Origin: a virus
Reading direction: 5' to 3' (one strand)
Length of the DNA: 43,538 nt
IMG/VR virus record: IMGVR_UViG_3300018920_000003
Location: 1 to 43,538 of that record
Shown: one piece after another, positions 5,369-43,536 of the stretch
Numbering within the stretch: position 1 is the first letter of the stretch
How the letters are laid out: every line of letters begins with the position of its first letter
Notes under the pieces: model-generated
What the model saw: only the letters and a program-made list of their open reading frames with translations
Database searches by the model: none
Told to the model about the DNA's origin: nothing
Position numbers and translations under genes: made by a program

Positions 5369-5685
5369 CGGCGGCTCGCGGGCACGGGCGGCACCGGGCG
5401 CACATTGATCGAGCGCTCGACCATAGTGGACTCGATCAGCATGCGCACGTCGTGGATCGCGTCCGAGTTTCCGTCGATCGCTTTGGCCAGCGCCGTGGTG
5501 TGCTCGTGCTGCTGCTGAACCAGCTCGAGCAGCTTGGCCGTCATCACCTGCGCGTCCGCGATGCGTGCTGTCTGCACCGCCGACACCTCGGCCTTGAGCG
5601 CCCGCAGCGCGTACAAACACACGACCAACACCGCACCCGGTGCGCCGAAGCTCGTGATGATCGTGGTGAGGACCTGCTCGTTCAC
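5365..5685 (-). CDS. Putative holin (single membrane segment plus coiled coil)
   Basis: A 106-residue protein with one N-terminal hydrophobic span (residues about 9-28, GAPGAVLVVCLYALRALK) followed by a long polar helix likely to form a coiled coil and a Pro/Arg-rich tail. This architecture fits small phage holin-like or holin-partner membrane proteins, and it lies two genes before the amidase in a coupled string. The role would be to permeabilise the inner membrane and let the endolysin out. The assignment rests on topology and context, not on a recognised motif. Confidence 0.6.
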   Translation of the reverse strand: MNEQVLTTIITSFGAPGAVLVVCLYALRALKAEVSAVQTARIADAQVMTAKLLELVQQQHEHTTALAKAIDGNSDAIHDVRMLIESTMVERSINVRPVPPVPASRR

Positions 5686-5930
5686 AGCTCGTCGTCCCTT
5701 TGTGGTTCCACCAGTAAGTATGACCCTTCCGGCGCCGGGTCGTCAGCCGCTCGCCGCGGCGGCGGGCGCGTCGTGAGGCCATGTGCGTCGCCGCGCCCGA
5801 GCTCGTAGCAAGCCACGCCGTACTGCCTGAGCGCGTGCAGGTGGACGGTTTCGATGGGACGCCGTCGCGCGCGCAGCTGCTCAACCAAGGCGTCAAGCAG
5901 CGGGCGCGTACGGCGGCGCGGGTTGATCAT
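5682..5930 (-). CDS. Small basic protein in the lysis cassette
   Basis: An 82-residue protein with an Arg-rich N-terminal helix (PLLDALVEQLRARRRPIETVHLHAL) and a Pro-rich acidic C-terminus. It overlaps the holin candidate downstream and the small membrane gene upstream in ATGA form. There is no membrane segment and no known motif. It could be a regulator or antiholin-like partner, but that is speculation. Confidence 0.55.
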   Translation of the reverse strand: MINPRRRTRPLLDALVEQLRARRRPIETVHLHALRQYGVACYELGRGDAHGLTTRPPPRRAADDPAPEGSYLLVEPQRDDEL

Positions 5931-6094
5931 GCATCGACCCGAAAGATCCAGAGCGCCAGCACCAGCTCGCCGAGTGCGAGCACCAGCACGCCTGCCCAGA
6001 GCCAGCGCATCCTGCGACGCACGCTCTGCAGCTCGCGCAGCGCACGGCCAGTCTTGCCCTCGGCCGGGGTGACCTCGCTCGCTCGTGAAACCAT
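5927..6094 (-). CDS. Small single-pass membrane protein (lysis-associated)
   Basis: A 55-residue protein with a basic amphipathic N-terminus and one C-terminal membrane helix (WLWAGVLVLALGELVLALWI), so the N-terminus is probably cytoplasmic. It starts on the TGATG overlap with the upstream gene at 6094. It is the first gene of the lysis cassette and could be a second holin or antiholin component. A longer frame to 6274 is rejected because it reads through the fibre-associated gene. Confidence 0.65.
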   Translation of the reverse strand: MVSRASEVTPAEGKTGRALRELQSVRRRMRWLWAGVLVLALGELVLALWIFRVDA

Positions 6095-27527: not shown

Positions 27528-28972
27528 CTCGTGGACTCGTCGTCATCGGACTCCTCGTCCGCGTCCTCGTCGTCGGGCTCGGGCTCGTCGCCGTTGGTCG
27601 CCTCGCCTGGCCGCAGCCCTTGCTTGATGTCCGCCTCCAGCAACGCGCGCCGATGCTCGGCGTCGATTGTGGGAATGTCCGCGGCGAGCGCGATGCCGGC
27701 CTCGGCCTCCATCTCGATCTGCGCGGTGACCAGGGCGACGTGCGTGTCCGCCTTCAGCTTCAGGATGGTCGCCTGCTCAAGCTCGTTCGGCTGCCACAGC
27801 GGCTTGAACTCGATCGTCCAGGAGTCCGGTTCCGAGCCGCCTGTAGCCGAGTCGCTCGCGTTCATCAGAATGCGCACGAGGCGCTCGAGCCGCGGCTTGA
27901 GCACGTCCGTCTGGGCATCCGCTACCGTGTCGTACCAGCCGCGGATGTCGGACTCGCCGGTCGCATTCAAGCCCGCTGGCGACTTGCCGAACAGCAGCGT
28001 CACCGGCATCTCGGCCGCTGCAGCCACCCGCTGCATCATGCGGTCCATCATCTCGGGCAGCCCCGCAAACGACGTCGCAACGCGCTCGAAGCTCTCGCGG
28101 TCCGCGTCGATCAGGAGCGATCGGCACACCGAGCGCGCAAGGTCCATCATCTGAATGCGCGTGCGCAGCTCCTCCTGGCCGTTGGTCGCGATCAGGTCCA
28201 CCAGGTTGGCGATCTTGAGCACGCCCTGGCTCGCGTCGCTGATCAGATGCGCGACCGACTGCCACGACGTGGCGGTCTGCCGCAGCGCATCGTGCACGCA
28301 CTGCAGCACCGAGTCCGGCCACCAGCTGTCTGCCCGCTGATTGACCGCTGTCGCGGTGAGCGTGCCCTCGAAGATGATCAGGCGCGAGGCGTGGATGAAC
28401 GTGCCCGTGTTGATCATCGCTGCGCCGGTGACATCCGAGCGGCGCACCTCGAAGATCTCGGGCTCTCCGTAGTGCTCCGCCGTCACGTCCTCGAAGCGCT
28501 TGGCGATCTTGAGTTGCGGGCGCCGCAGCACGTTCAGAAACGCGAGACGCGTGATCTTGGTTTCGTCGAGCAGCTGCTCGGGCGCCTGGCCATCGTCCAC
28601 GCCAAGGTAGATGGCACCGCCGCCGTAGAGCCGACCCCAGATCCAAGCCTCGCGCAACTTGGACATCGCGCCGAGCTCGTGCATCTGGGCCATCAGCGCG
28701 CGGTTGACCTCGACCGACTCATCGTCGTCGGCGCCCTCAAGCCTCAGTCGAAAGCCCCGCCGCGTGGCGTCGCGCGGAATCTTGTTGACGATGCGCTTGG
28801 CCAGGTCGTCGTCGTTGAACAGCGACTCGAGCACAGCGTCGCTCAGCTTCACGCCCGGCACGACCTGCGAGTGCGTTAGCTTGTCGCGCAGCGTGCCAAG
28901 CCCGGTGAGCGCGTTCACCCAAGAGTCGGTGCGCTGCACCACGTTGGCAACCACTGCGCTGACGAGGCTCAC
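27524..28972 (-). CDS. Portal protein (DUF1073 type)
   Basis: A 482-residue protein. It starts with a hydrophobic N-terminus (SLVSAVVANVVQRTDSWVNA), then LGTLRDKLTHSQVVPGVKLS and AWIWGRLYGGGAIYLGVDDG, the portal core of DUF1073. MPVTLLFGKSPAGLNATGES is the family's signature block. The C-terminal 40 residues are extremely acidic. Twelve copies would form the DNA channel at one vertex, bound by the terminase. The start is GTG, overlapping the TerL stop as GTGA. It is placed directly after TerL, as usual. Confidence 0.87.
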   Translation of the reverse strand: MSLVSAVVANVVQRTDSWVNALTGLGTLRDKLTHSQVVPGVKLSDAVLESLFNDDDLAKRIVNKIPRDATRRGFRLRLEGADDDESVEVNRALMAQMHELGAMSKLREAWIWGRLYGGGAIYLGVDDGQAPEQLLDETKITRLAFLNVLRRPQLKIAKRFEDVTAEHYGEPEIFEVRRSDVTGAAMINTGTFIHASRLIIFEGTLTATAVNQRADSWWPDSVLQCVHDALRQTATSWQSVAHLISDASQGVLKIANLVDLIATNGQEELRTRIQMMDLARSVCRSLLIDADRESFERVATSFAGLPEMMDRMMQRVAAAAEMPVTLLFGKSPAGLNATGESDIRGWYDTVADAQTDVLKPRLERLVRILMNASDSATGGSEPDSWTIEFKPLWQPNELEQATILKLKADTHVALVTAQIEMEAEAGIALAADIPTIDAEHRRALLEADIKQGLRPGEATNGDEPEPDDEDADEESDDDESTR

Positions 28973-30471
28973 GCTGCACCCAGCTCGACCGCGATGTTCT
29001 GCATGGCCTGCTGGTATGCGACGACGCCGTGTTTGTGAAGGCCCATGAAAGCCCGGCTGCAGGCGTCCACGATGTCCTTGTGCTTGCCGTCGGGAAAAGC
29101 CTCGAGCTCGCTGAAGAACTCGTCATTCCAGTGCCCGGCGAGCACGTCGACGTTGCCCGCCTCCACCTGGGTCGAAAACGGGCCCGCGTACACGACCTTG
29201 TCCTCGCGCGCCACCTCGGACTCGACGCGAAAGCCCATCAGCAAACTCTTGGTGAGCTGCACGTCGACCTTGCCGGCCTGCGCTGGGTCCTGCCACACCA
29301 GCACCTTCACGCGCTTGCCATCCCCGTGCGCGGTGTTCTGCATCGTTTGCAGCACCTGGCGCGGTGACCCGCGCAGCGACTCGAGATGCATCACCACGAA
29401 GCGCCCGCTGCGCGTGACTCCCATCTTCACGCCACGCGTCCAGGCGGGGTCGGGGCTGTCGGTTGTGACCTGCGTCGCTGCCTTGTCCCAGCCACGCACC
29501 ACCGCGATGATGTCAGTCGGCAGCACCTCCACCACGTGAAACCACCCGCGCCGGAAGTAGAGCCCTGCAGCGGGCCGGATGCGCCAGTTGCCGCCCTGGC
29601 CACTGCCCAGCAGGCGCTCTCGCTCGACCATCGGCAAGGACATCAGGCGCGCACGGTAGCCGGGGTCCGCCTTGAGCAAGATCTTGTTGTCCGCGAGGCG
29701 CCCGAGGATGAAGGTAAACGAGGTGGGCTCGATGCCCTGCTCGACGAACTCTGGGTAACGCTCCATGAGCTCCGCAGGCGTGTCACCCCACACGAGCTCG
29801 TCGCCGCAGCGGAAAAAGTAGCGGATCACGCCGCTGCGCTCGGGCAGCACGTACTCGCCGCGCTCGTCAAGCCACCACAGGATCATCTTCTTGACCCAGC
29901 TGTCCGGGTCGGGATTCATCGTCGCTCGGATGTACGAGCGCACGCCCGAGGTCGAGCGGCAGCGCGAGTACAGGTACCAGAACTGGCCCTCGGTGAAGTG
30001 CGGCAACTCGTCGAAGCCGATCAGCGAGTAGCCCTTGCCCTGGTGGTCCTCCTTGGTCGACTCGTACTGCAGGTGACCGAGCTGCAGCGATGCGCCGCTC
30101 GGGAACACCGCCTTGAACGGGTTTTGCGTGAGCCGCGCGTTGAGACCTGGATACCACTCACGCATCAGCTCCCACAGCGAGCCAGGGCCCTCGAGCTGTG
30201 GCGAGGTGCGGCGGAAGATGATGCCGCCGGCCTTGGGGATGTCGTAGCAGCGCAGGCCCTCGAGCACGAGCGCCGAGGTTTTGCTCGAGCCCGCCTCGCC
30301 GCCGTAGAACACGATGTCGGCGCCGCAGGCCAGGAACCGCTCCTGCGAGCCCGGCTGCGGCCCGATACGCAGGACCGGCTGGGGTTTAGCCTTTGTCTTC
30401 TTCGTCGTCGGTGAGGGCGGGCCGGCGTCCGTTGTCCGGCATGTAGAACTCGATCTTGGTGCGTGTGCCAT
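28969..30471 (-). CDS. terL: Terminase large subunit
   Basis: A 500-residue packaging ATPase-nuclease. Walker A is GGEAGSSKTS (57-66, K64) and Walker B is LIGFDE (150-155, D154/E155). The C-terminal RNase-H-like nuclease begins at VVRGWDKAATQ (Asp near residue 335) and ends near DIVDACSRAF with another Asp. The N-terminus is uncertain: the longest frame starts at ATG 30471 and overlaps the small subunit gene by 86 bp, with only a weak ribosome site. The first 35 residues are low-complexity and may not be translated. It cuts concatemers and powers packaging through the portal. Confidence 0.9.
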   Translation of the reverse strand: MAHAPRSSSTCRTTDAGPPSPTTKKTKAKPQPVLRIGPQPGSQERFLACGADIVFYGGEAGSSKTSALVLEGLRCYDIPKAGGIIFRRTSPQLEGPGSLWELMREWYPGLNARLTQNPFKAVFPSGASLQLGHLQYESTKEDHQGKGYSLIGFDELPHFTEGQFWYLYSRCRSTSGVRSYIRATMNPDPDSWVKKMILWWLDERGEYVLPERSGVIRYFFRCGDELVWGDTPAELMERYPEFVEQGIEPTSFTFILGRLADNKILLKADPGYRARLMSLPMVERERLLGSGQGGNWRIRPAAGLYFRRGWFHVVEVLPTDIIAVVRGWDKAATQVTTDSPDPAWTRGVKMGVTRSGRFVVMHLESLRGSPRQVLQTMQNTAHGDGKRVKVLVWQDPAQAGKVDVQLTKSLLMGFRVESEVAREDKVVYAGPFSTQVEAGNVDVLAGHWNDEFFSELEAFPDGKHKDIVDACSRAFMGLHKHGVVAYQQAMQNIAVELGAA

Positions 30472-30847: not shown

Positions 30848-30999
30848 CACAGCCGTCCAGTCAGGAGCAGAACGAGGAGCACCAGCACGACAAGCCCGAG
30901 GGCGCCAGACGGCCCGTAGCCCCAGCTGCGCGAGTGACCCCAGTTTGGAAAGGACCCGACGGCAAGAAACACCAGCACCACGATGAGTATTGTGACCAT
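30847..30999 (-). CDS. DUF3309-like small membrane protein
   Basis: A 50-residue protein with two hydrophobic helices separated by a polar loop reading WGHSRSWGYGPSGALGL. This P-x-W-x-HS-x-x-WGYGPSG-x-G-L pattern is that of the DUF3309 family, small hairpin membrane proteins known mainly from bacterial chromosomes. The ATG at 30999 overlaps the preceding methyltransferase stop (TGATG). Why it stands before the terminase genes is unknown; it may be a moron or a late membrane function. Confidence 0.75.
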   Translation of the reverse strand: MVTILIVVLVFLAVGSFPNWGHSRSWGYGPSGALGLVVLVLLVLLLTGRL

Positions 31000-32279
31000 C
31001 ACCCGCTCCTGACTGCTTTGCCGCCCGTGAGCTTTTGCCAGCGCTCGACGATCACATCGCAATAGCCAGGGTCGATCTCGAGCGCCACGCACACGCGACC
31101 GAGGTGCTCCGCCGCCATCAGCGTCGTACCCGAGCCGCAAAACGGATCGTACACCGCATCCCCAGTGGTGCCGTGGTTGCGGATCGGCCGCGCCATACAC
31201 TCGATCGGTTTCTGCGTGGAGTGGATGGTTTCGTCCTGCCCGTCCCTGCGTGCGATGTCCCAGACGGTCGACTGCTTGCGATCACCGGACCACCTCGCCG
31301 TTTTGCCTGCACGAACCGCATACCAGAGCGCCTCGAACTTCCAGTGGTAGTGCCCGCGACTGATGACGAGCGACGGCTTGTTCCACGCGATCAGCGCTCG
31401 TCGCTCGAACCCATTGGTGTCGAGCTCCGCCGCCGCGACGTTGCAGTGGAGTGGATCGCACCAGGTGTACACAACATCGCCGGGAAAGAGTTTCCACGCC
31501 CCGCCCCAGTCCGCGCGGTGGTCGTTCTCGACCTTGCCCATGCGTTTGCTGTTGTTCAGGCCGACACGCTTGCGCCACTCCGGATCGTACTCAACGCCAT
31601 AGGGCGGGTCGGTGACCATCAGGAACGGCGACAGTTTCGCCTTGGCCAAAGCCACGTCCTTGGCTTCGGTGGCGTCGCCGCACACTAGGCGGTGCTTGCC
31701 CAGCAACCAGAGATCGCCGGGCTTCGTGACGGGCCGAGCGGGCGGCTCGGGTGCAACGTCGTCGGGCAGCTCCTCGTCGCCGCGCACCTGGCGCTCGAGC
31801 TCGCGCAGGTCCTTCTCGTCCCAGCCCGCCAGCATCTGGTCGCCCAGGTCGTAGCTGGCCAGGATCGACTGCAGCTCTGGCGTGTCCCACTCCGCGAGCT
31901 CGCCCAGGCGGTTGTCCGCCAGCGCCAGCAGGTGCGCCTCGCGTTCCGAGATGTCGAGGAAGCGCACCGGCACGCGATCGAGCTTGAGCTGCTGCGCGGC
32001 CTTCCAGCGCGTATGGCCAGCGATGATCTCTCGCGTAGCCGTGCGCGCGACGATTGGCGCGGCGAAGCCGAACCGCTTGATCGACTCGGCGACCGCCACC
32101 ACCGGCTCGCCGTCGTTCCTGCGCGGGTTCTTCGCCCAAAGCTTGAGGGTGGATGGGTCGACCCACTCGGCGGCCGCTGCTGGCGGCGGTGGCCGTTTGT
32201 CGGTCACGATCACGGGTGTTGCGGCTCGCTTGGCGGTCGCTGGTGCGATTTTCTTCTTCGTCGCTGCTGATGTTGTCAT
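30999..32279 (-). CDS. ParB-like nuclease/DNA methyltransferase fusion
   Basis: A 426-residue fusion. Residues 35-125 form a ParB/Srx-like N-terminal domain (NPR at 51-53, EIIAGHTRWKAA at 84-95). Residues about 185-420 are an amino-methyltransferase with DPPY (224-227) preceding FCGSGTT (near 383), the beta-class order of N6-adenine or N4-cytosine enzymes. Phage ParB-MTase fusions modify viral DNA, probably against restriction, and may couple this to nicking or binding. The ATG at 32279 overlaps the upstream gene in ATGA. It lies just ahead of the terminases. Confidence 0.88.
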   Translation of the reverse strand: MTTSAATKKKIAPATAKRAATPVIVTDKRPPPPAAAAEWVDPSTLKLWAKNPRRNDGEPVVAVAESIKRFGFAAPIVARTATREIIAGHTRWKAAQQLKLDRVPVRFLDISEREAHLLALADNRLGELAEWDTPELQSILASYDLGDQMLAGWDEKDLRELERQVRGDEELPDDVAPEPPARPVTKPGDLWLLGKHRLVCGDATEAKDVALAKAKLSPFLMVTDPPYGVEYDPEWRKRVGLNNSKRMGKVENDHRADWGGAWKLFPGDVVYTWCDPLHCNVAAAELDTNGFERRALIAWNKPSLVISRGHYHWKFEALWYAVRAGKTARWSGDRKQSTVWDIARRDGQDETIHSTQKPIECMARPIRNHGTTGDAVYDPFCGSGTTLMAAEHLGRVCVALEIDPGYCDVIVERWQKLTGGKAVRSG

Positions 32280-36474: not shown

Positions 36475-36764
36475 GGCGCGAGCTCCTGAAACGCGTTGCA
36501 CTTCGAACAGTGCGCACCAGGCACGACGCGCTGCTCACCGCACTGCTGACAAAACCGCGCGCCATCTATCGACCCGACCATCGGGCTGTTGCGCAGCGCG
36601 AGATCGGGCGCGCGGTTGAGATAGAGCGCACAGCCTGGCGTGTGACACTCGCCACCCGCGCCGTCTAAGCACAGATCACATAGCGACAGCTCCACTTGCC
36701 GGACGTCCGCGCCTTTGTCAGTACCGTCAAGTTCGCTTGGTGTTGGTCGCTGTACGTCGCTCAT
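36471..36764 (-). CDS. Zinc-ribbon protein between two methyltransferases
   Basis: A 97-residue protein with CDLC, CHTPGC, CQQC and CSKC, four clear Cys pairs that can bind two zinc ions. The C-terminal CQQCGEQRVVPGAHCSKCNAF half is a typical zinc ribbon. It is coupled by ATGA to both neighbours. A role in DNA or protein binding is likely but unspecified. Confidence 0.68.
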   Translation of the reverse strand: MSDVQRPTPSELDGTDKGADVRQVELSLCDLCLDGAGGECHTPGCALYLNRAPDLALRNSPMVGSIDGARFCQQCGEQRVVPGAHCSKCNAFQELAP

Positions 36765-37687
36765 GCTGGAGGCTCCTGGAGTAACCGAATAACGTGGCCG
36801 ATGACCTCTGCGCACTGCGGCACTACGGCGTTGCCGAGGGCTTGGATGCGCTGTCGTCCGCCAGCCGCTTCGATGCGTGTTTGGCGGCGCGAATGGGCTG
36901 CGTCCAGCCCGCCGGAAACCCCATGAGCCACTCGCAGAACGTCGGGGACAGGTGACCCCCAAGAGCTGACGGGAGGTTGTTGCTGCCCTCGCGCAATCTG
37001 TCCGAGGGCCCCTTCTGATCGCGCGCGCAGAGCGTCGGCAGCAGTCGATGCGCTGCCCACTTCTGCATGCTCGGCGAAAGCATGTTGCCGCACCGCGTCA
37101 GCGTCGGCAGCAACGACCCGCGCTTTGCCATCGTCTGCAGCGACTCGCGGACCTTGCCCTCGCGACCTGCTGCTCCGCCGTGGTTCGTGCCGTAGCTCTG
37201 CGCCGTGAGCGTGGGCAGCAACGAGGAAAACGCGCGCTCTCTCGTGCGGAGCACCGACATCCGCTGCCGAAAGCGGAATCGGTAGCACCGCGTACCCGAG
37301 CTCTCCCAGCCCTTCAGAGACTGCGTCAACCCACGCAACCGCTCCGCTGGCGACGTTCTCAACCACCACCCACTGCGGCTGAAGCTCAGAAACAATGCGC
37401 CTGAACTCAAACCACAGGCCGCTGCGAGCACCTCCAAGGCCAACTCGCTTGCCGGCAGAGGAAACGTCCTGGCAGGGAAATCCACCGCAGACGATGTCCA
37501 CGGAAGCGAGAGTTGCTGCTCCGACGGATCGAACATCGTCATACCTCTTGACTGCGGGCCAGTGCTGCTCGAGTACGGCTCGACAGAGCGGATCGCTTTC
37601 CACCTGCCATCGAACCGGGCCGAGCCCGGCGCTCTCGAGGCCGAGCTCCAATCCGCCGATGCCGGCAAACAGCGATCCGATGGTCAT
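36761..37687 (-). CDS. dcm: DNA (cytosine-5) methyltransferase
   Basis: A 308-residue C5 methyltransferase. Motif I is LFAGIGGLELG (6-16), motif IV is GGFPCQDVS with catalytic C72, motif VI is ENV (110-112), motif VIII is HERARVFLV (148-156) and motif X is ALGNAVVP (283-290). The variable region between VIII and X is about 125 residues, rich in Arg/Ala/Asp. The ATG at 37687 follows a coupled small membrane gene. A second, out-of-frame gene is nested in it (36823-37542). Role: methylation of phage DNA, probably anti-restriction. Confidence 0.92.
   Translation of the reverse strand: MTIGSLFAGIGGLELGLESAGLGPVRWQVESDPLCRAVLEQHWPAVKRYDDVRSVGAATLASVDIVCGGFPCQDVSSAGKRVGLGGARSGLWFEFRRIVSELQPQWVVVENVASGAVAWVDAVSEGLGELGYAVLPIPLSAADVGAPHERARVFLVAAHAHGAELRHEPRRSSRSRGQGPRVAADDGKARVVAADADAVRQHAFAEHAEVGSASTAADALRARSEGALGQIARGQQQPPVSSWGSPVPDVLRVAHGVSGGLDAAHSRRQTRIEAAGGRQRIQALGNAVVPQCAEVIGHVIRLLQEPPA
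36823..37542 (-). CDS. Nested alternate-frame gene inside dcm
   Basis: A 239-codon frame lying wholly within the methyltransferase gene, same strand, different frame, with its own ATG and TAG stop. Its product looks like a real protein: SLPWTSSAVDFPARTFPLPA, then SRSGWWLRTSPAERLRGLTQ, repeated LLPTLTA/LLPTL blocks and the end LSPTFCEWLMGFPAGWT. Such LLPTLTAR and EWLMGFPxGW phrases recur, to my knowledge, in phage proteins encoded beside cytosine methyltransferases. Whether it is translated is not proven. The function is unknown, possibly linked to specificity or methylation. Confidence 0.62.
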   Translation of the reverse strand: MTMFDPSEQQLSLPWTSSAVDFPARTFPLPASELALEVLAAACGLSSGALFLSFSRSGWWLRTSPAERLRGLTQSLKGWESSGTRCYRFRFRQRMSVLRTRERAFSSLLPTLTAQSYGTNHGGAAGREGKVRESLQTMAKRGSLLPTLTRCGNMLSPSMQKWAAHRLLPTLCARDQKGPSDRLREGSNNLPSALGGHLSPTFCEWLMGFPAGWTQPIRAAKHASKRLADDSASKPSATP

Positions 37688-37848
37688 GGGTACGGCCTCC
37701 CGAACAGCCACATGAGGAACATCGCCAGCAGCCCGACGCTGATGCTCGCGGCACCCAGCACGAAGAATGCATACGCAATCCCGAGCGATTCGCGACGACG
37801 ACGCGCGCGCTGGTACTCCGGTGTGCTGCGGTAGTCTTGCTCGGACAT
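37684..37848 (-). CDS. Small membrane protein
   Basis: A 54-residue protein with a basic N-terminal half (YQRARRRRESL) and one long hydrophobic helix (GIAYAFFVLGAASISVGLLA) plus a short second one. The ATG at 37848 overlaps the RuvC-like gene's stop (TGATG) and its end overlaps dcm's ATG by four bases. The function is unknown. Confidence 0.6.
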   Translation of the reverse strand: MSEQDYRSTPEYQRARRRRESLGIAYAFFVLGAASISVGLLAMFLMWLFGRPYP

Positions 37849-38513
37849 CACGCCCTCCCCGTCCACGCACGCAGCGATGCCGCGCGCGCTTGCTTGCCGA
37901 TGACCTCGCCCACCTTCGCCGCACGCTCTGCCCAGCGACCGATGAGTAGCGCTGCCGCCTCGTCGCCTCCGACTGGCTCACCCACCATCGCGCTCGCGAT
38001 GAGTTGCTCCTGCTCACGGACCACCGCGCGCTTGGCGTTCGCGAACTGGCGACCCAGCACCGGCCCGCGCCAGACGTTTGGTTTGACCCGCACCACCTTG
38101 GCCTTCGGCTGCTCCGCCTGACGCCACGCACAGAGCCAGCGCTCGCGCGCCTGCCCGAGGGCCACCAGCACCCAAGGCTTGCCGCCCCAGGGCGCCTCGA
38201 GCACGAGCACCAGCGGCATCCCGACCCGCTCGGCCTTGCGAATCGACCAGCGCACGATGTGCGACACGGCCGCGGCATCCAACGTGTCGACCTCGCCGAA
38301 CTCGGCCTGCCGACCGGCCACCCGCACGGACCACCCGCTCAGGGCCGCCGTGTCGACCGCCAGGACCACGCAGTGCCAGGGCATCGGTGCCGGCGCCTCC
38401 ACGGCCCCGCGCTGCCTCGCTGTGGCCCGCGACAGGGCGGTGGGCGCCCGCGCCGCTGCGTCGACGCCGGGCAGCGACAGCGGCCCGCAGGCGGCCTGTG
38501 AACGGCGCTTCAT
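37848..38513 (-). CDS. RuvC/RNase-H-like nuclease (putative Holliday-junction resolvase)
   Basis: A 221-residue protein. After a disordered N-terminus (1-44) it has the RuvC order of acidic residues: D54 in VVLAVDTA, E106 in LVLEAPW, and D184/E185 in GGDEAAALLIGRWA. These match D7, E66 and D138/D141 of RuvC. It may trim branched replication intermediates before packaging. The ATG at 38513 overlaps the preceding stop in ATGA. Substrate is inferred from the family. Confidence 0.72.
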   Translation of the reverse strand: MKRRSQAACGPLSLPGVDAAARAPTALSRATARQRGAVEAPAPMPWHCVVLAVDTAALSGWSVRVAGRQAEFGEVDTLDAAAVSHIVRWSIRKAERVGMPLVLVLEAPWGGKPWVLVALGQARERWLCAWRQAEQPKAKVVRVKPNVWRGPVLGRQFANAKRAVVREQEQLIASAMVGEPVGGDEAAALLIGRWAERAAKVGEVIGKQARAASLRAWTGRA

Positions 38514-38980
38514 GCCAGCACCTCCTCGAGTTGCAGCCCGAGCGCCCGCAGCACCCGCGCCCAGGTCCAGTTGCGTGGCGCCGGCGGGTAGCCGAAGCCG
38601 CCCAGCGCCTCGAGGCTCGTGAGTCGCCACAGCGGATCGGCCGCCTTGCGCTCGCACCAGTCGCCGAGCACCGCCCAGTTGGCGCGGTCGTGCTCGGTCG
38701 CAATCAGCAAGGCCGAAAGCTCCGGACCCACGAAGGCGGGGGCTGCGACCACAGGCGCGGCGCTTGAGGAGGCAAGTACCGCGTGCCCGCCCGCGTGGGT
38801 CCGGCAAAGAAGAGCCGATGGCAACGGCAGCTCGCACAGTAGCAGCGCCGGCAGGCCGAGTACCTCACGCACAGCGATCGACAACTCCGGCGCTGGCGAC
38901 GCCGATGGCTGCTTGAGCGGCGCAGCCTCCGGCGGCGGCGGCGCGATGGTCATCGGGCTGACCCGCACTCGCCGGGTCAT
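38510..38980 (-). CDS. Unknown early protein next to the iteron region
   Basis: A 156-residue protein: a Pro/Ala-rich N-terminus (APPPPEAAPLKQPSASPAPE), hydrophobic middle segments and an end with DPLWRLTSLEALGGFGYPPA then WTWARVLRALGLQLEEV, a compact helical domain. It is the first gene after the 12-iteron region; GGGTGG lies nine bases before its ATG. It might be the iteron-binding or replication accessory protein, but that rests on place only. Confidence 0.6.
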   Translation of the reverse strand: MTRRVRVSPMTIAPPPPEAAPLKQPSASPAPELSIAVREVLGLPALLLCELPLPSALLCRTHAGGHAVLASSSAAPVVAAPAFVGPELSALLIATEHDRANWAVLGDWCERKAADPLWRLTSLEALGGFGYPPAPRNWTWARVLRALGLQLEEVLA

Positions 38981-39072
38981 AGCGACCACCCGTTAGATGG
39001 CGCTTGGACTGTCGCCAGATCTAATAGTTTGTCGCCAGTTCTATTTAACAACTGGCGACAGAATAGCTGAGT

Positions 39073-39244
39073 GATTTCTAAACATGTCGCCATGTCGCCA
39101 GTTGTCGCCAAGGTTTCGATAAGACCTATGGGAGAAAACGGGGAAACATGACGTCGCACAGACGGATGTGTATGTTCCGTCTCGCGCACGACTCTTATCT
39201 GTGGGCTGGCGACAACTGGCGACATGGCGACATGCTTAGAAATC
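39073..39244. repeat. 38-bp inverted repeat within the iteron region
   Basis: The left arm (39073-39110) and right arm (39207-39244) are inverted copies with one mismatch in 38 positions. Each holds three octamers and ends outward in GATTTCTAA. The 96-bp centre between them contains no octamer. Such symmetric double arrays are typical of binding platforms for dimeric initiators or for looped origins. Confidence 0.75.
39160..39182. promoter_or_regulatory. Central dyad inside the iteron region
   Basis: AGACGGA and TCCGTCT, a perfect 7-bp inverted repeat around a 9-bp spacer, lie in the octamer-free centre. It is a different motif from the iterons, so it might be the site of a second protein or a small hairpin. 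Confidence 0.4.
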
Positions 39245-39299
39245 GTTGAGGATTTCTGTCGCCAGTTCGGTTTTGCAACTGGCGACAACTGGCGACACC

Positions 39300-41837
39300 T
39301 CATGGGTCACCCGTGTCATCGTCAGTGATTTCGAGGATGTAGAAGCGGCTCTTAGCGCCGCCTATCCGCACGTCCTTGTCGAGCCTGCCCGGTTCGTGCT
39401 GCAGCCAACCGCGTTCAGCCCAGGCGCGCAAGACCTGCCGAGACCCTAGACGCTGGTCGTCGCAAAACTTTCGGAACTGATGTGGGATGAACAGTGTGGT
39501 CGTTGCTGACCTACGAAAGCCGTGCAGCACGCGGCCGTTGCTCCGTCCCGACGGACCCTCATCTCCGTTGGTTACATACTGCAGCTCGGGAAACGCGTCG
39601 GGCTCGGCGCTGACCCACTCGCGCGCGAGCTGCACTGAGCGGTCGGCGAGCGACTCGGTGCGCTCGCGACGGTCCTGGTCGGCAAACAGCCGCGCCATGG
39701 TCCGGCCATCGTGGTGGCCGATGCCCAACTGCGACAGCAGGCTCTCCGCCAGCCCGAGCAGGGCAAAGTACGCGGCCACCCGACCCTGCAGCGGGTCGCA
39801 CTGGACGCTCTCACGCAGCGTGCGGATGTTGGCGGCCAGCGTCTCGCGCAGGCCATCCCAGTCGTCGATGTCGAGCAGCATCTCCACCCACTGGCGCCCC
39901 AGCATGCCGGCATTGGCGGCGCACGCCTCGCGCAGCGCGTCGACCTCGGCTGCTTGCAGGGCACCGAAGCCGCCGACCGGAAACTGGATGACGCGCACCT
40001 GGGCGCCGGTCGCGGTCGACTGGTCGGCGAGCTCGCGCTCGCCGGTCGACAGCACCACCGTGCGCCACGACTGCGTCTCGCGCAGCTGCAGGTCCTGGGT
40101 GCCGCGCGTGCGGCCACCGCCGTTGACGAGCATGTAGACCATGCGCTCAATGGTCTGCGCGTCAGTCGCACCCACCTCGTCGTAGCACTGCGGCAAATCC
40201 GTCAGCACCGCGGCGCGCAGCTCGGCGGCGACGCCGGTGGTGTTCCAACTCGCCACCCAGCGCTCGTCGTTCGGGTCGCCGAACACACTAGAGCTGATCT
40301 TCAGGATCGACGTCTTGCCGCGGCTCGAGTCGCCGGTTAGGTGGATGGCGAAGTTGGGCGCGCCGAGCGGCTCGAGCAGCGTCGCGGCGACCGCCCCGCA
40401 AATCACAGCCGCGCACACTGGGTCAGCCTCCCAGGCCGTGCGCAGCGCCGCGACGTGGGCACGCAGCGAGCCGCGTGCGGTGAGTGCCCCGAACATCCGG
40501 CGACGGTCGCCGCGCGTGTCGAGTGCGAGCTGCGGCGTGCGCTCGGGATGTGCGAACACCGGCTCGGCCAGCACGAAGATCCGCTCGCCCTCGAGCTGAT
40601 GCCAGCCTGCGCGGGCGACGCACGCGATGCGCTCGATGCGGCCGGCGTTCACGCGCTCGAGGTCCTCGAACCAGTCGACCAGTTTGGAGGCGTTGTTCGA
40701 GGTGATGGGTGCGCCGAACTGAGCGAGCTCGCTGATCATGGTGCGCGAGTCGGCGATCGCCATGCGCGTGACGCACAAGGACACCCAACGGTCGTCGCGC
40801 CCAAAGCACAGGTCGACCCGGCCCTCATGCGTGTACAGGTCGTCGAGGTAGCGCTGCAGCAGGATGGCGCCGCGCCCGATCTTCTGATCGCCGTGCTTGT
40901 CGTCGCCCACCTTCCAGAGCGTGCCGTCCTTCTCGACGTTGTAGCCCTCGGGCAACCGGAGCTCGGGGCTGACCGGGGCATCACGCAGCGCCCGCACCCG
41001 CGACACACGCAGCAGCGGGTTTTTCGGGTCGGCCGGCTCGAGCGCGGTGGCCGTCTCAAGCAACCGCAGCACGCCCTCGGCGCGGTGGACGGCATAGTAG
41101 TCGTCGATGCCCTTTTGCTCGGCGCTGGGCGGGCACACGAACCGCACGCTGAGCGCGCCGGCCGCAAACAGCACGCCGCACAGCCGCGCCGCTGCCAGCT
41201 GCACCTGATCGTTGTCGCGGGCGTCGGCGTCGAACACGATGACGTGGTGGCGCGCTGCGACCACGACGTGATCGCGGATGTTAGGGTGCAGGCGGTCCTC
41301 GCCGGTCGCGCGCCGGTGCGCGACGTCACCCCAGTTCCAAACGCCAGTCAGGCCCACGCAGCACAGGCCGAGCTCGTCGAGCACGAGGGCCTTTTTCTCG
41401 CCCTCGGTCCAAAAGCACACGAGCGCGGCGTCGGCGTACAAGCGCGCGGCCCGAGCACGCGGTGTGAAGTACACCAGCACGCCGAGCTGCTCGGACTGGT
41501 CGTACTTCACAACCCGCACGCGCTTGCCGTGCTTTTCGGTGCGCGGGTTCGTGGGCCGCACGCGGTAACCGGCCAGCGCACCGTCGGGCAGATAAAACGG
41601 AAACACCAGCGCGGCGTTGCACTGCCGCGGCCACACCTTGCGCTGCACGATGGCGGCGAGCGCGCGGTGGTTGGCCTCGGTGTACAGCTCAGCGAGGCGG
41701 ATGGTCTCGTCGTTCAGCCCCGAGGCCCGCAGGGTCTCGAGGTGCTTTTCCGAGACCTCGCGCGCTTGAGGCAGCGGCACAACCGTAGGCTTCGGCCCGC
41801 GACCACCGCTGCCCTTGCTCTGCGTTCCCTCGCTCAA
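39300..41837 (-). CDS. Primase-helicase (DUF3854 TOPRIM-like plus DUF927 helicase)
   Basis: An 845-residue replication protein. Residues about 50-270 resemble the DUF3854 TOPRIM-like primase part (CFWTEGEKKALVLDELGL, HHVIVFDADARDNDQVQL). Residues about 440-640 are a DUF927-type helicase with Walker A GDSSRGKTS (about 500) and a Walker B-like LPQCYDEVG. The C-terminus is a DNA-binding-like domain with FIPHQFRKFCDDQRLGSRQV. The start is a TTG at 41837 with AGAGGT four to five bases upstream; a longer frame to 42092 would run through the previous gene. It would unwind and prime at the adjacent iteron region. Confidence 0.85.
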   Translation of the reverse strand: MSEGTQSKGSGGRGPKPTVVPLPQAREVSEKHLETLRASGLNDETIRLAELYTEANHRALAAIVQRKVWPRQCNAALVFPFYLPDGALAGYRVRPTNPRTEKHGKRVRVVKYDQSEQLGVLVYFTPRARAARLYADAALVCFWTEGEKKALVLDELGLCCVGLTGVWNWGDVAHRRATGEDRLHPNIRDHVVVAARHHVIVFDADARDNDQVQLAAARLCGVLFAAGALSVRFVCPPSAEQKGIDDYYAVHRAEGVLRLLETATALEPADPKNPLLRVSRVRALRDAPVSPELRLPEGYNVEKDGTLWKVGDDKHGDQKIGRGAILLQRYLDDLYTHEGRVDLCFGRDDRWVSLCVTRMAIADSRTMISELAQFGAPITSNNASKLVDWFEDLERVNAGRIERIACVARAGWHQLEGERIFVLAEPVFAHPERTPQLALDTRGDRRRMFGALTARGSLRAHVAALRTAWEADPVCAAVICGAVAATLLEPLGAPNFAIHLTGDSSRGKTSILKISSSVFGDPNDERWVASWNTTGVAAELRAAVLTDLPQCYDEVGATDAQTIERMVYMLVNGGGRTRGTQDLQLRETQSWRTVVLSTGERELADQSTATGAQVRVIQFPVGGFGALQAAEVDALREACAANAGMLGRQWVEMLLDIDDWDGLRETLAANIRTLRESVQCDPLQGRVAAYFALLGLAESLLSQLGIGHHDGRTMARLFADQDRRERTESLADRSVQLAREWVSAEPDAFPELQYVTNGDEGPSGRSNGRVLHGFRRSATTTLFIPHQFRKFCDDQRLGSRQVLRAWAERGWLQHEPGRLDKDVRIGGAKSRFYILEITDDDTGDP

Positions 41838-41848
41838 GTGGACCTCTG

Positions 41849-42331
41849 CTAGGCAACGATGTCTGTGAGCGATGCGTTCGGGCCGGCTTGCTTCGCGCGC
41901 GGCTTTGCCTTCGTCGCCTTCGCAGCCTTCGGCTTCGGGCTGCGCGGCGGCGGCGCCATGTCCTCGGTCTGATCTGCGGCGTCGAAGAGGTCGCCGACGC
42001 GGTCGTCCGCGCTCATCGCGCGCGTGTCGATGGTCGCGCCGAGGTCCAAGCGCACGAGACGAAACACGTTTTTCGCGAAATCCGGCTGCCACTCACAGCG
42101 CACCTCGCGGGTCTCTACGCCGCTATCGATCACGTGCGCGAGCTCTGCGCGGCGCTTCACCTCGCCGCTGATCTCGCCGTTGATCGCACTGCGGCTCGCC
42201 TTGAGCTCCTCGATCTTCAGCTCACAGGACGCCATCTCGTCGCCTCGTTTGACGAGCTCGGGCTCCGTGAGTTTGACGGGCAGGGGTCGCACCTCCGTGT
42301 CACGGACTGTTTTTCCGTTTGTTTTCGCCAT
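41849..42331 (-). CDS. Unknown early protein with basic C-terminus
   Basis: A 160-residue protein. A helical first half (LTEPELVKRGDEMASCELKI, LKASRSAINGEISGEVKRRA) is followed by strands (REVRCEWQPDFAKNVFRLVR) and a disordered Lys/Pro/Ala tail. It stands between the small XRE regulator and the primase-helicase with an 11-bp gap to the latter. A single-strand-binding or early accessory role is possible; the family was not recognised. Confidence 0.62.
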   Translation of the reverse strand: MAKTNGKTVRDTEVRPLPVKLTEPELVKRGDEMASCELKIEELKASRSAINGEISGEVKRRAELAHVIDSGVETREVRCEWQPDFAKNVFRLVRLDLGATIDTRAMSADDRVGDLFDAADQTEDMAPPPRSPKPKAAKATKAKPRAKQAGPNASLTDIVA

Positions 42332-42706: not shown

Positions 42707-43114
42707 ATGGCACTGCTACGCTCGGTGACCACTTTCGGAGAACGTTTGAAGGCCCTGCGACTGCAGCGTGGCGAGACGCAGCCCGAGCTCGCCGAGGCGG
42801 TCGCGACGAACGCGGGCACGGTCTCGCGCTGGGAGCGCGACGACGGCAAGCCGCACGTGGAGCAGCTCCTCAAGCTGCGCGAGCACTTCGGCGTTACGCT
42901 CGATTTCCTGCTGCTCGGCGAGCCGCACGACGAGCACCCAGTGTCGCTGCCGGAGTTCGACACGTTCCTGGCATCCGAGTACGGACGCATCGCCGAGAAA
43001 CGTGGCTACGTGCGCGCGCTGCTGGCACTGCGCTATCCGTTTCCACCCACCGCGCGCCTCTACAAGGCTCTTGTTGCCACGATGATGCTCGAGGACGACG
43101 AAACCCCGCGTTGA
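42707..43114 (+). CDS. XRE-family repressor (CI-like)
   Basis: A 135-residue protein with an N-terminal helix-turn-helix (RLKALRLQRGETQPELAEAV, NAGTVSRWERDDG, HVEQLLKLREHFGVTLDFLL) and a C-terminal domain of about 60 residues ending in FPPTARLYKALVATMMLED. It lacks a Ser-Lys peptidase signature, so it is not a LexA/CI self-cleaving type. Divergent from the Cro-like gene, it is the likely keeper of lysogeny. The ATG is at 42707. Confidence 0.78.
   Translation: MALLRSVTTFGERLKALRLQRGETQPELAEAVATNAGTVSRWERDDGKPHVEQLLKLREHFGVTLDFLLLGEPHDEHPVSLPEFDTFLASEYGRIAEKRGYVRALLALRYPFPPTARLYKALVATMMLEDDETPR

Positions 43115-43242: not shown

Positions 43243-43536
<294 letters not shown>

Follow-up and report, generated by a model that had tools for sequence, protein, structure and literature searches.

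Directly behind the primase-helicase gene of a phage genome lies a dense array of octamers in both orientations, and the question it raises is whether the phage starts its replication there. Plasmid iterons and the lambda O iterons are, like this array, short repeats bound by an initiator. They are direct repeats, however, and a loader puts the host helicase on them, whereas the present array consists of mirrored sets and the helicase is encoded by the phage itself. The alpha protein of phage P4 is primase, helicase and origin-binding protein in one, and its ori and crr hold short iterons in both orientations like those described here, although alpha belongs to a different helicase family.

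In SaPIs and Gram-negative PICIs the demonstrated origin is the region 3' of rep, where an AT-rich region is always flanked by two iteron sets (PMC6092414). Segments spanning rep and ori of EcCICFT073, SaPIbov1, SaPI1 and EfCIV583 replicate plasmids, and in 2018 this organisation was known from no other bacterial replicon (PMC6092414). SaPI Rep recognises the origin via its C-terminal domain, apparently as two hexamers (PMC7581432).

In this study, we analysed the window, i.e. the whole stretch of 43,538 nucleotides of IMG/VR virus record IMGVR_UViG_3300018920_000003. We conclude that the array is very probably the replication origin of a temperate tailed myophage, of the PICI/SaPI type and served by an initiator-helicase. 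An earlier note on this DNA had proposed a probable phage origin; homology of the initiator and the map of the sites now support this proposal beyond the repeats alone.

Results

The element is a phage and not a satellite

The window encodes terminase (28969-30471), portal, a Mu-F-like head morphogenesis protein, protease and major head protein, as well as tail sheath, tape measure and baseplate proteins (Pfam, PHROGs). At 1-407 the left contig end truncates an integrase gene, of which the C-terminal end remains, and 42707-43114, close to the right contig end, encodes a cI/Xre-like regulator. Structural genes, integrase end and cI-like regulator therefore indicate a temperate contractile-tailed phage and not a satellite. 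The contig is probably nearly complete, and the integrase end implies that lysogeny is probably by integration. PICI satellites are small and helper-dependent, whereas this 43.5-kb contig has its own terminase, head, sheath and baseplate genes. Judged by its gene content, the element itself is not a PICI, while its replicon would work like that of a PICI.

The early region contains two methyltransferase genes, a ParB-N/N6-N4 methyltransferase fusion at 30999-32279 (best PHROG, DNA methyltransferase) and a C5-cytosine methyltransferase gene at 36761-38278. A run of 31 C at 43415-43445, near the right contig end, may be an assembly artefact or a real homopolymer.

Twelve octamers share a dyad axis

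The octamer TGTCGCCA/TGGCGACA occurs in 12 exact copies within ~290 bp, six per orientation as the earlier note had counted, and nowhere else in the window (Table 1). The chance expectation for the contig is 2.58, and none of 100 shuffles reached 12 copies. The array is present as a single copy.

Table 1. Coordinates of the array and of the adjoining initiator gene.
Feature	Position	Strand	Source or remark
Primase-helicase/initiator gene, 930 aa counted as ORF (start uncertain)	39300..42092	-	SaPI-Rep/Cch relative; Pfam, PHROGs, PDB sequences
DUF3854 TOPRIM aa 222-336; DUF927 helicase aa 393-672; HTH_56 aa 864-924	initiator		Pfam
Coding region of C-terminal winged helix (HTH_56)	39321..39503	-	proposed iteron-binding domain
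Iteron array, 12 octamers in two mirrored sets, proposed ori	39010..39297	.	sole contig copies
TGTCGCCA plus-strand sites (n=6)	39010, 39030, 39085, 39093, 39103, 39257	+	
TGTCGCCA minus-strand sites (n=6)	39053, 39207, 39217, 39225, 39280, 39290	-	
Left outer iterons (39010+, 39030+, 39053-)	39010..39060	.	
Left inner triplet (39085, 39093, 39103)	39085..39110	+	spacings 8, 10 bp
Repeat-free 96-bp centre	39111..39206	.	presumed melting/loading region, role taken from PICI origins (PMC6092414)
Right inner triplet (39207, 39217, 39225)	39207..39232	-	exact mirror of left triplet
Right outer iterons (39257+, 39280-, 39290-)	39257..39297	.	

The mirrored triplets around an empty 96-bp centre, seen in the earlier note, are part of a larger symmetry. 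Five opposite-strand pairs, i.e. 10 of the 12 sites, share the single exact axis 39158.5, on which the outer site 39053 is paired with 39257, and 39030 with 39280. Randomly placed sites never gave more than three axis-sharing pairs (0/20,000 reached five), and shuffling of gaps and orientations gave five in 3/20,000. These five pairs thus make 39029-39288 one imperfect palindrome of 260 bp. Its inverted arms (39050-39110 and 39207-39267) are 61 nt each, 89% complementary and separated by 96 nt, and they contain the 38-bp inverted repeat with one mismatch described before. Both 11-bp dyads reported alongside it (TGTCGCCAGTT/AACTGGCGACA) were located, at 39030/39050 and at 39257/39277.

The least stable 290-bp segment of the contig starts at 38992 and spans almost the entire array. 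The centre has 52% GC as compared to 67% for the phage, and by itself ranks in the top 0.4% for instability.

An ORF on the minus strand (38977-39303) crosses the array, its start overlapping the helicase stop as ATGA. GC at its three codon positions is 0.51/0.50/0.50 versus 0.73/0.50/0.84 in the helicase gene; it is probably a chance ORF, and the array is non-coding. Codon-position GC and the presence of octamers in both orientations rule out a coding repeat. A consensus scan detected no terminator at the array, and Rfam gave no match to any RNA family. Single-strand folding yields a z-score of -13, which is due to the inverted repeats and was therefore left out of the evidence. Cumulative GC skew declines over the whole contig with its minimum at 43467, away from the array where the earlier note had suggested it, and lends no support to an origin at this site.

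The initiator is related to SaPI Rep

The array adjoins the 3' side of the primase-helicase gene, as stated earlier, with 39297 as its last position and 39300 as the end of the gene. The encoded protein matches DUF927 (3.5e-36) and HTH_56 (2.2e-8), a domain named after Cch. Its best solved relatives among PDB sequences are SaPIbov1 Rep (8tch, 6.6e-20) and SCCmec Cch (5dgk, 1.6e-10), the latter sharing helicase family and HTH_56 domain with the initiator of the window. Cch2 is likewise a self-loading initiator helicase, and binding of sites downstream of the gene by the C-terminal domain was shown for Cch2; it differs in its helicase family and has three AAGTG direct repeats without a mirrored 12-site array (PMC7581432).

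The C-terminal domain of the initiator is predicted to be a winged helix (pLDDT about 82-86 in the core, mean 61). The best match of the predicted fold is TcpK (E = 4.5e-3), with SaPIbov1 Rep matched weakly. TcpK binds 9-nt tandem repeats around its beta-wing (PMC6137059). The protein encoded at 38510-38989, on the other side of the array, has no Pfam or PHROG match. We regard the C-terminal winged helix of the primase-helicase, rather than the 38510-38989 protein, as the likely iteron binder.

The site map resembles that of a SaPI relative

The earlier note regarded the layout of the array as unusual. It has a precedent, however, in the origins of PICIs and SaPIs (PMC6092414), and SaPIbov1 Rep is a relative of the helicase. 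Like the rep-ori regions of SaPIbov1, SaPI1 and EcCICFT073, the window combines a DUF927 initiator with a C-terminal DNA-binding domain (HTH_56 in the window), an array immediately 3' of the initiator gene and a repeat-free region between two mirrored iteron sets. Unlike them, it belongs to a self-sufficient temperate myophage and uses the octamer TGTCGCCA.

The likeness extends to single sites when the window is compared to PT1028, a SaPI relative. Counted from the initiator stop in gene direction, the sites of the window lie at 3+, 13+, 36-, 68+, 76+ and 86+ before the centre and at 190-, 200-, 208-, 240+, 263- and 283- after it. The PT1028 sites downstream of rep, AGTTCCCG-like octamers with up to 2 mismatches (n=12), lie at 3+, 12+, 23+, 46-, 90+ and 99+ and at 186-, 195-, 239+, 262-, 273- and 281+. 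The two maps of 12 sites each nearly coincide. The array centre of PT1028 has 20% GC, whereas that of the window is only moderately AT-rich.

Mirrored arrays follow many DUF927 genes of mobile elements

We collected the DNA that follows 34 DUF927 genes of phages, plasmids and PICI-like elements; the loci are not all independent, five being close relatives of FP_Epona. A strict mirrored-doublet test required a doublet of copies in like orientation, spaced 7-11 bp, then 40-140 bp free of copies, then a second doublet, also spaced 7-11 bp, in the opposite orientation, and five copies in total. It was passed by 20 of the 34 loci, as compared to 0/136 shuffles and 0/34 in-gene controls, and failed by 14. 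PT1028 fails on account of a single copy with two mismatches. Measured from start to start, the centre has a median length of 95.5 bp among mirrored loci and is 104 bp long in the window. In bacterial chromosomal genomes of two phyla a single DUF927 locus out of 18 passed (L219, a clear example), and the array therefore belongs to a subset of DUF927 genes. Many DUF927 downstream regions hold 8-mer arrays far above shuffled sequence.

The octamers are AGTTACCC in the Streptomyces plasmid pFP4, TGTTCCCC in an S. virginiae plasmid, GTAACCGA in Thermoanaerobacterium phage THSA-485A, AGGTGAAA in Faecalibacterium phage FP_Epona, TGTCACAA in a Geobacillus plasmid, GTAACAGA in a Vibrio phage-like plasmid and GAACACAC in a Citrobacter plasmid. 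Octamers differ in most elements, which rules out TGTCGCCA as one common to the whole DUF927 initiator family. FP_Epona, THSA-485A and IMG/VR relatives (L084, L081, L115-L120) are, like the phage of the window, tailed phages with a primase-DUF927 protein and a downstream array, mostly mirrored; their octamers differ from that of the window. The main text of the published FP_Epona description makes no mention of an origin, iteron or helicase.

Iterons and winged helix change together in one phage pair

The initiators of FP_Epona and the viral contig L118 are near-identical, with 20 substitutions in 918 residues and a two-residue tail. Seven of these about 20 differences fall in residues 831-848 (0/20,000 in a scan test), which cover the wing and the last part of the recognition helix; the C-terminal tail is variable too. 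The downstream arrays (compared downstream of 4932 in L084 and of 3814 in L118) have ten sites at matching positions, and the sixth base is changed from A to T in all ten. AGGTGAAA of FP_Epona thus corresponds to AGGTGTAA of L118, with T at position 6, and just two further changes occur inside the sites. The concerted change of the iterons together with the clustered winged-helix differences connects the iterons with the C-terminal domain of the DUF927 initiator. As read from these sequences, the pair is a natural specificity switch. More distant relatives show a comparable layout with octamers of the kind AGGTGCAA, AGGAGTAA and TGGTAACA.

The same octamer in other sequences

Further occurrences of TGTCGCCA are regarded as leads; among the papers listed for the octamer itself in the open-licence literature, none was relevant. 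Three viral contigs (L023, L123, L124) have TGTCGCCA with tandem spacing and a DUF927-HTH_56 gene directly upstream. In the 17.9-kb viral record L004, which has no DUF927, 17 copies in mixed orientation (5574-6071) adjoin a DUF5681 gene and a DEAD/ResIII helicase gene. Arrays with helical spacing lie within the coding sequence of an AAA_25 helicase gene in L039, which was scanned, and in L042, L061, L064 and L073 of like layout; this looks like one gene in related phages. The lambda iterons, for comparison, sit inside the O gene.

Mirrored TGTCGCCA doublets immediately follow DUF3987 helicase genes in MAGs of Phycisphaerales and Actinobacteria (L092, 1875-1997; L095, 1257-1396) and also lie behind an AAA_25 helicase gene in L099. 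Mirrored sets also occur in L093, L094, L096, L097 and L098 (Parachlamydiaceae, Magnetococcales and Nitrospinota MAGs and a haloarchaeal plasmid), where no neighbour gene was identified as an initiator. The seven mirrored genome matches are not independent evidence of geometry, because the search pattern imposed the mirrored layout. Arrays behind all DUF3987 helicases are ruled out, with 2/25 in Planctomycetota genomes, one of them the L092 locus. Of the 66 three-copy TGTCGCCA clusters in viral contigs, 36 resemble coding repeats in that their spacings are multiples of three; clusters outside coding phase number 30, versus 8 for a scrambled control octamer.

Discussion

The case for an origin is based on the array, its dyad, its position 3' of the initiator, the homology of the initiator, the conserved geometry and the linked change in one pair of phages. 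For the phage of the window we infer iteron binding, double-hexamer loading, melting of the centre, fork direction and replication itself. The TOPRIM-DUF927-HTH_56 protein would use its C-terminal winged helix to bind each TGTCGCCA, the sequence being read by the beta-wing. The mirrored iteron sets would position one helicase hexamer to each side of the ~96-bp centre, the two being oppositely oriented. The centre would then melt, the hexamers would load themselves and run outward, and replication would be bidirectional, primed by the fused TOPRIM domain.

Binding of the initiator or of another phage protein might instead control the replication operon or the genes at 38.5-39.3 kb. Autorepression via iterons is common in plasmids, and such a regulatory role of binding could coexist with one in initiation. 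The array lies 3' of the initiator gene, however, a consensus scan of 38800-39500 gave no sigma-70-like promoter (E. coli-type consensus only), and no octamer is found near the cI-like gene (42.7-43.1 kb). The mirrored symmetry with its ~96-bp centre is moreover kept across phages and plasmids, and we consider an operator or autoregulatory array improbable.

Still smaller is the probability of a centromere-like, ParB-type site array for partition of a phage-plasmid. The phage does encode a ParB-N domain protein, but this is the methyltransferase fusion and lies 7 kb from the array, the integrase end points to a probably integrating lysogen, and equivalent arrays of relatives, with other octamers, occupy the same place behind the DUF927 initiator. 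We give equally little credence to a packaging (pac/cos) or recombination site or to remnants of a small inverted-repeat mobile element, for which the long inverted arms (61 nt, 89%) could be adduced. The terminase gene is 9 kb distant, the array is single copy, and an insertion would not be expected to recur behind DUF927 genes in the same position and geometry but with other octamers.

A replication origin of the PICI/SaPI type thus remains our preferred reading. To our knowledge of the open-licence literature, where later reports may have been missed, it is new that this design also occurs in full phages and plasmids. Its occurrence in self-sufficient phages and plasmids means that it marks the DUF927 initiator and not the satellite lifestyle. 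We lean slightly towards a single blueprint, i.e. mirrored sets ~100 bp apart behind a self-loading DUF927 helicase, which satellites would share with full tailed phages and with plasmids across Pseudomonadota, Actinomycetota and Bacillota, and in which all iterons change in concert with few winged-helix residues. The same octamer and layout occasionally recur downstream of a DUF3987 helicase gene (L092), a hint that the DNA-binding module can pass from one helicase family to another. The length of the centre, near-constant at ~96 bp, points to a physical constraint on how two hexamers are loaded. The FP_Epona/L118 pair amounts to a natural mutant from which the recognition code of the winged helix could be read, and the occurrence of the design in phages and plasmids offers a source or sink for satellite replicons.
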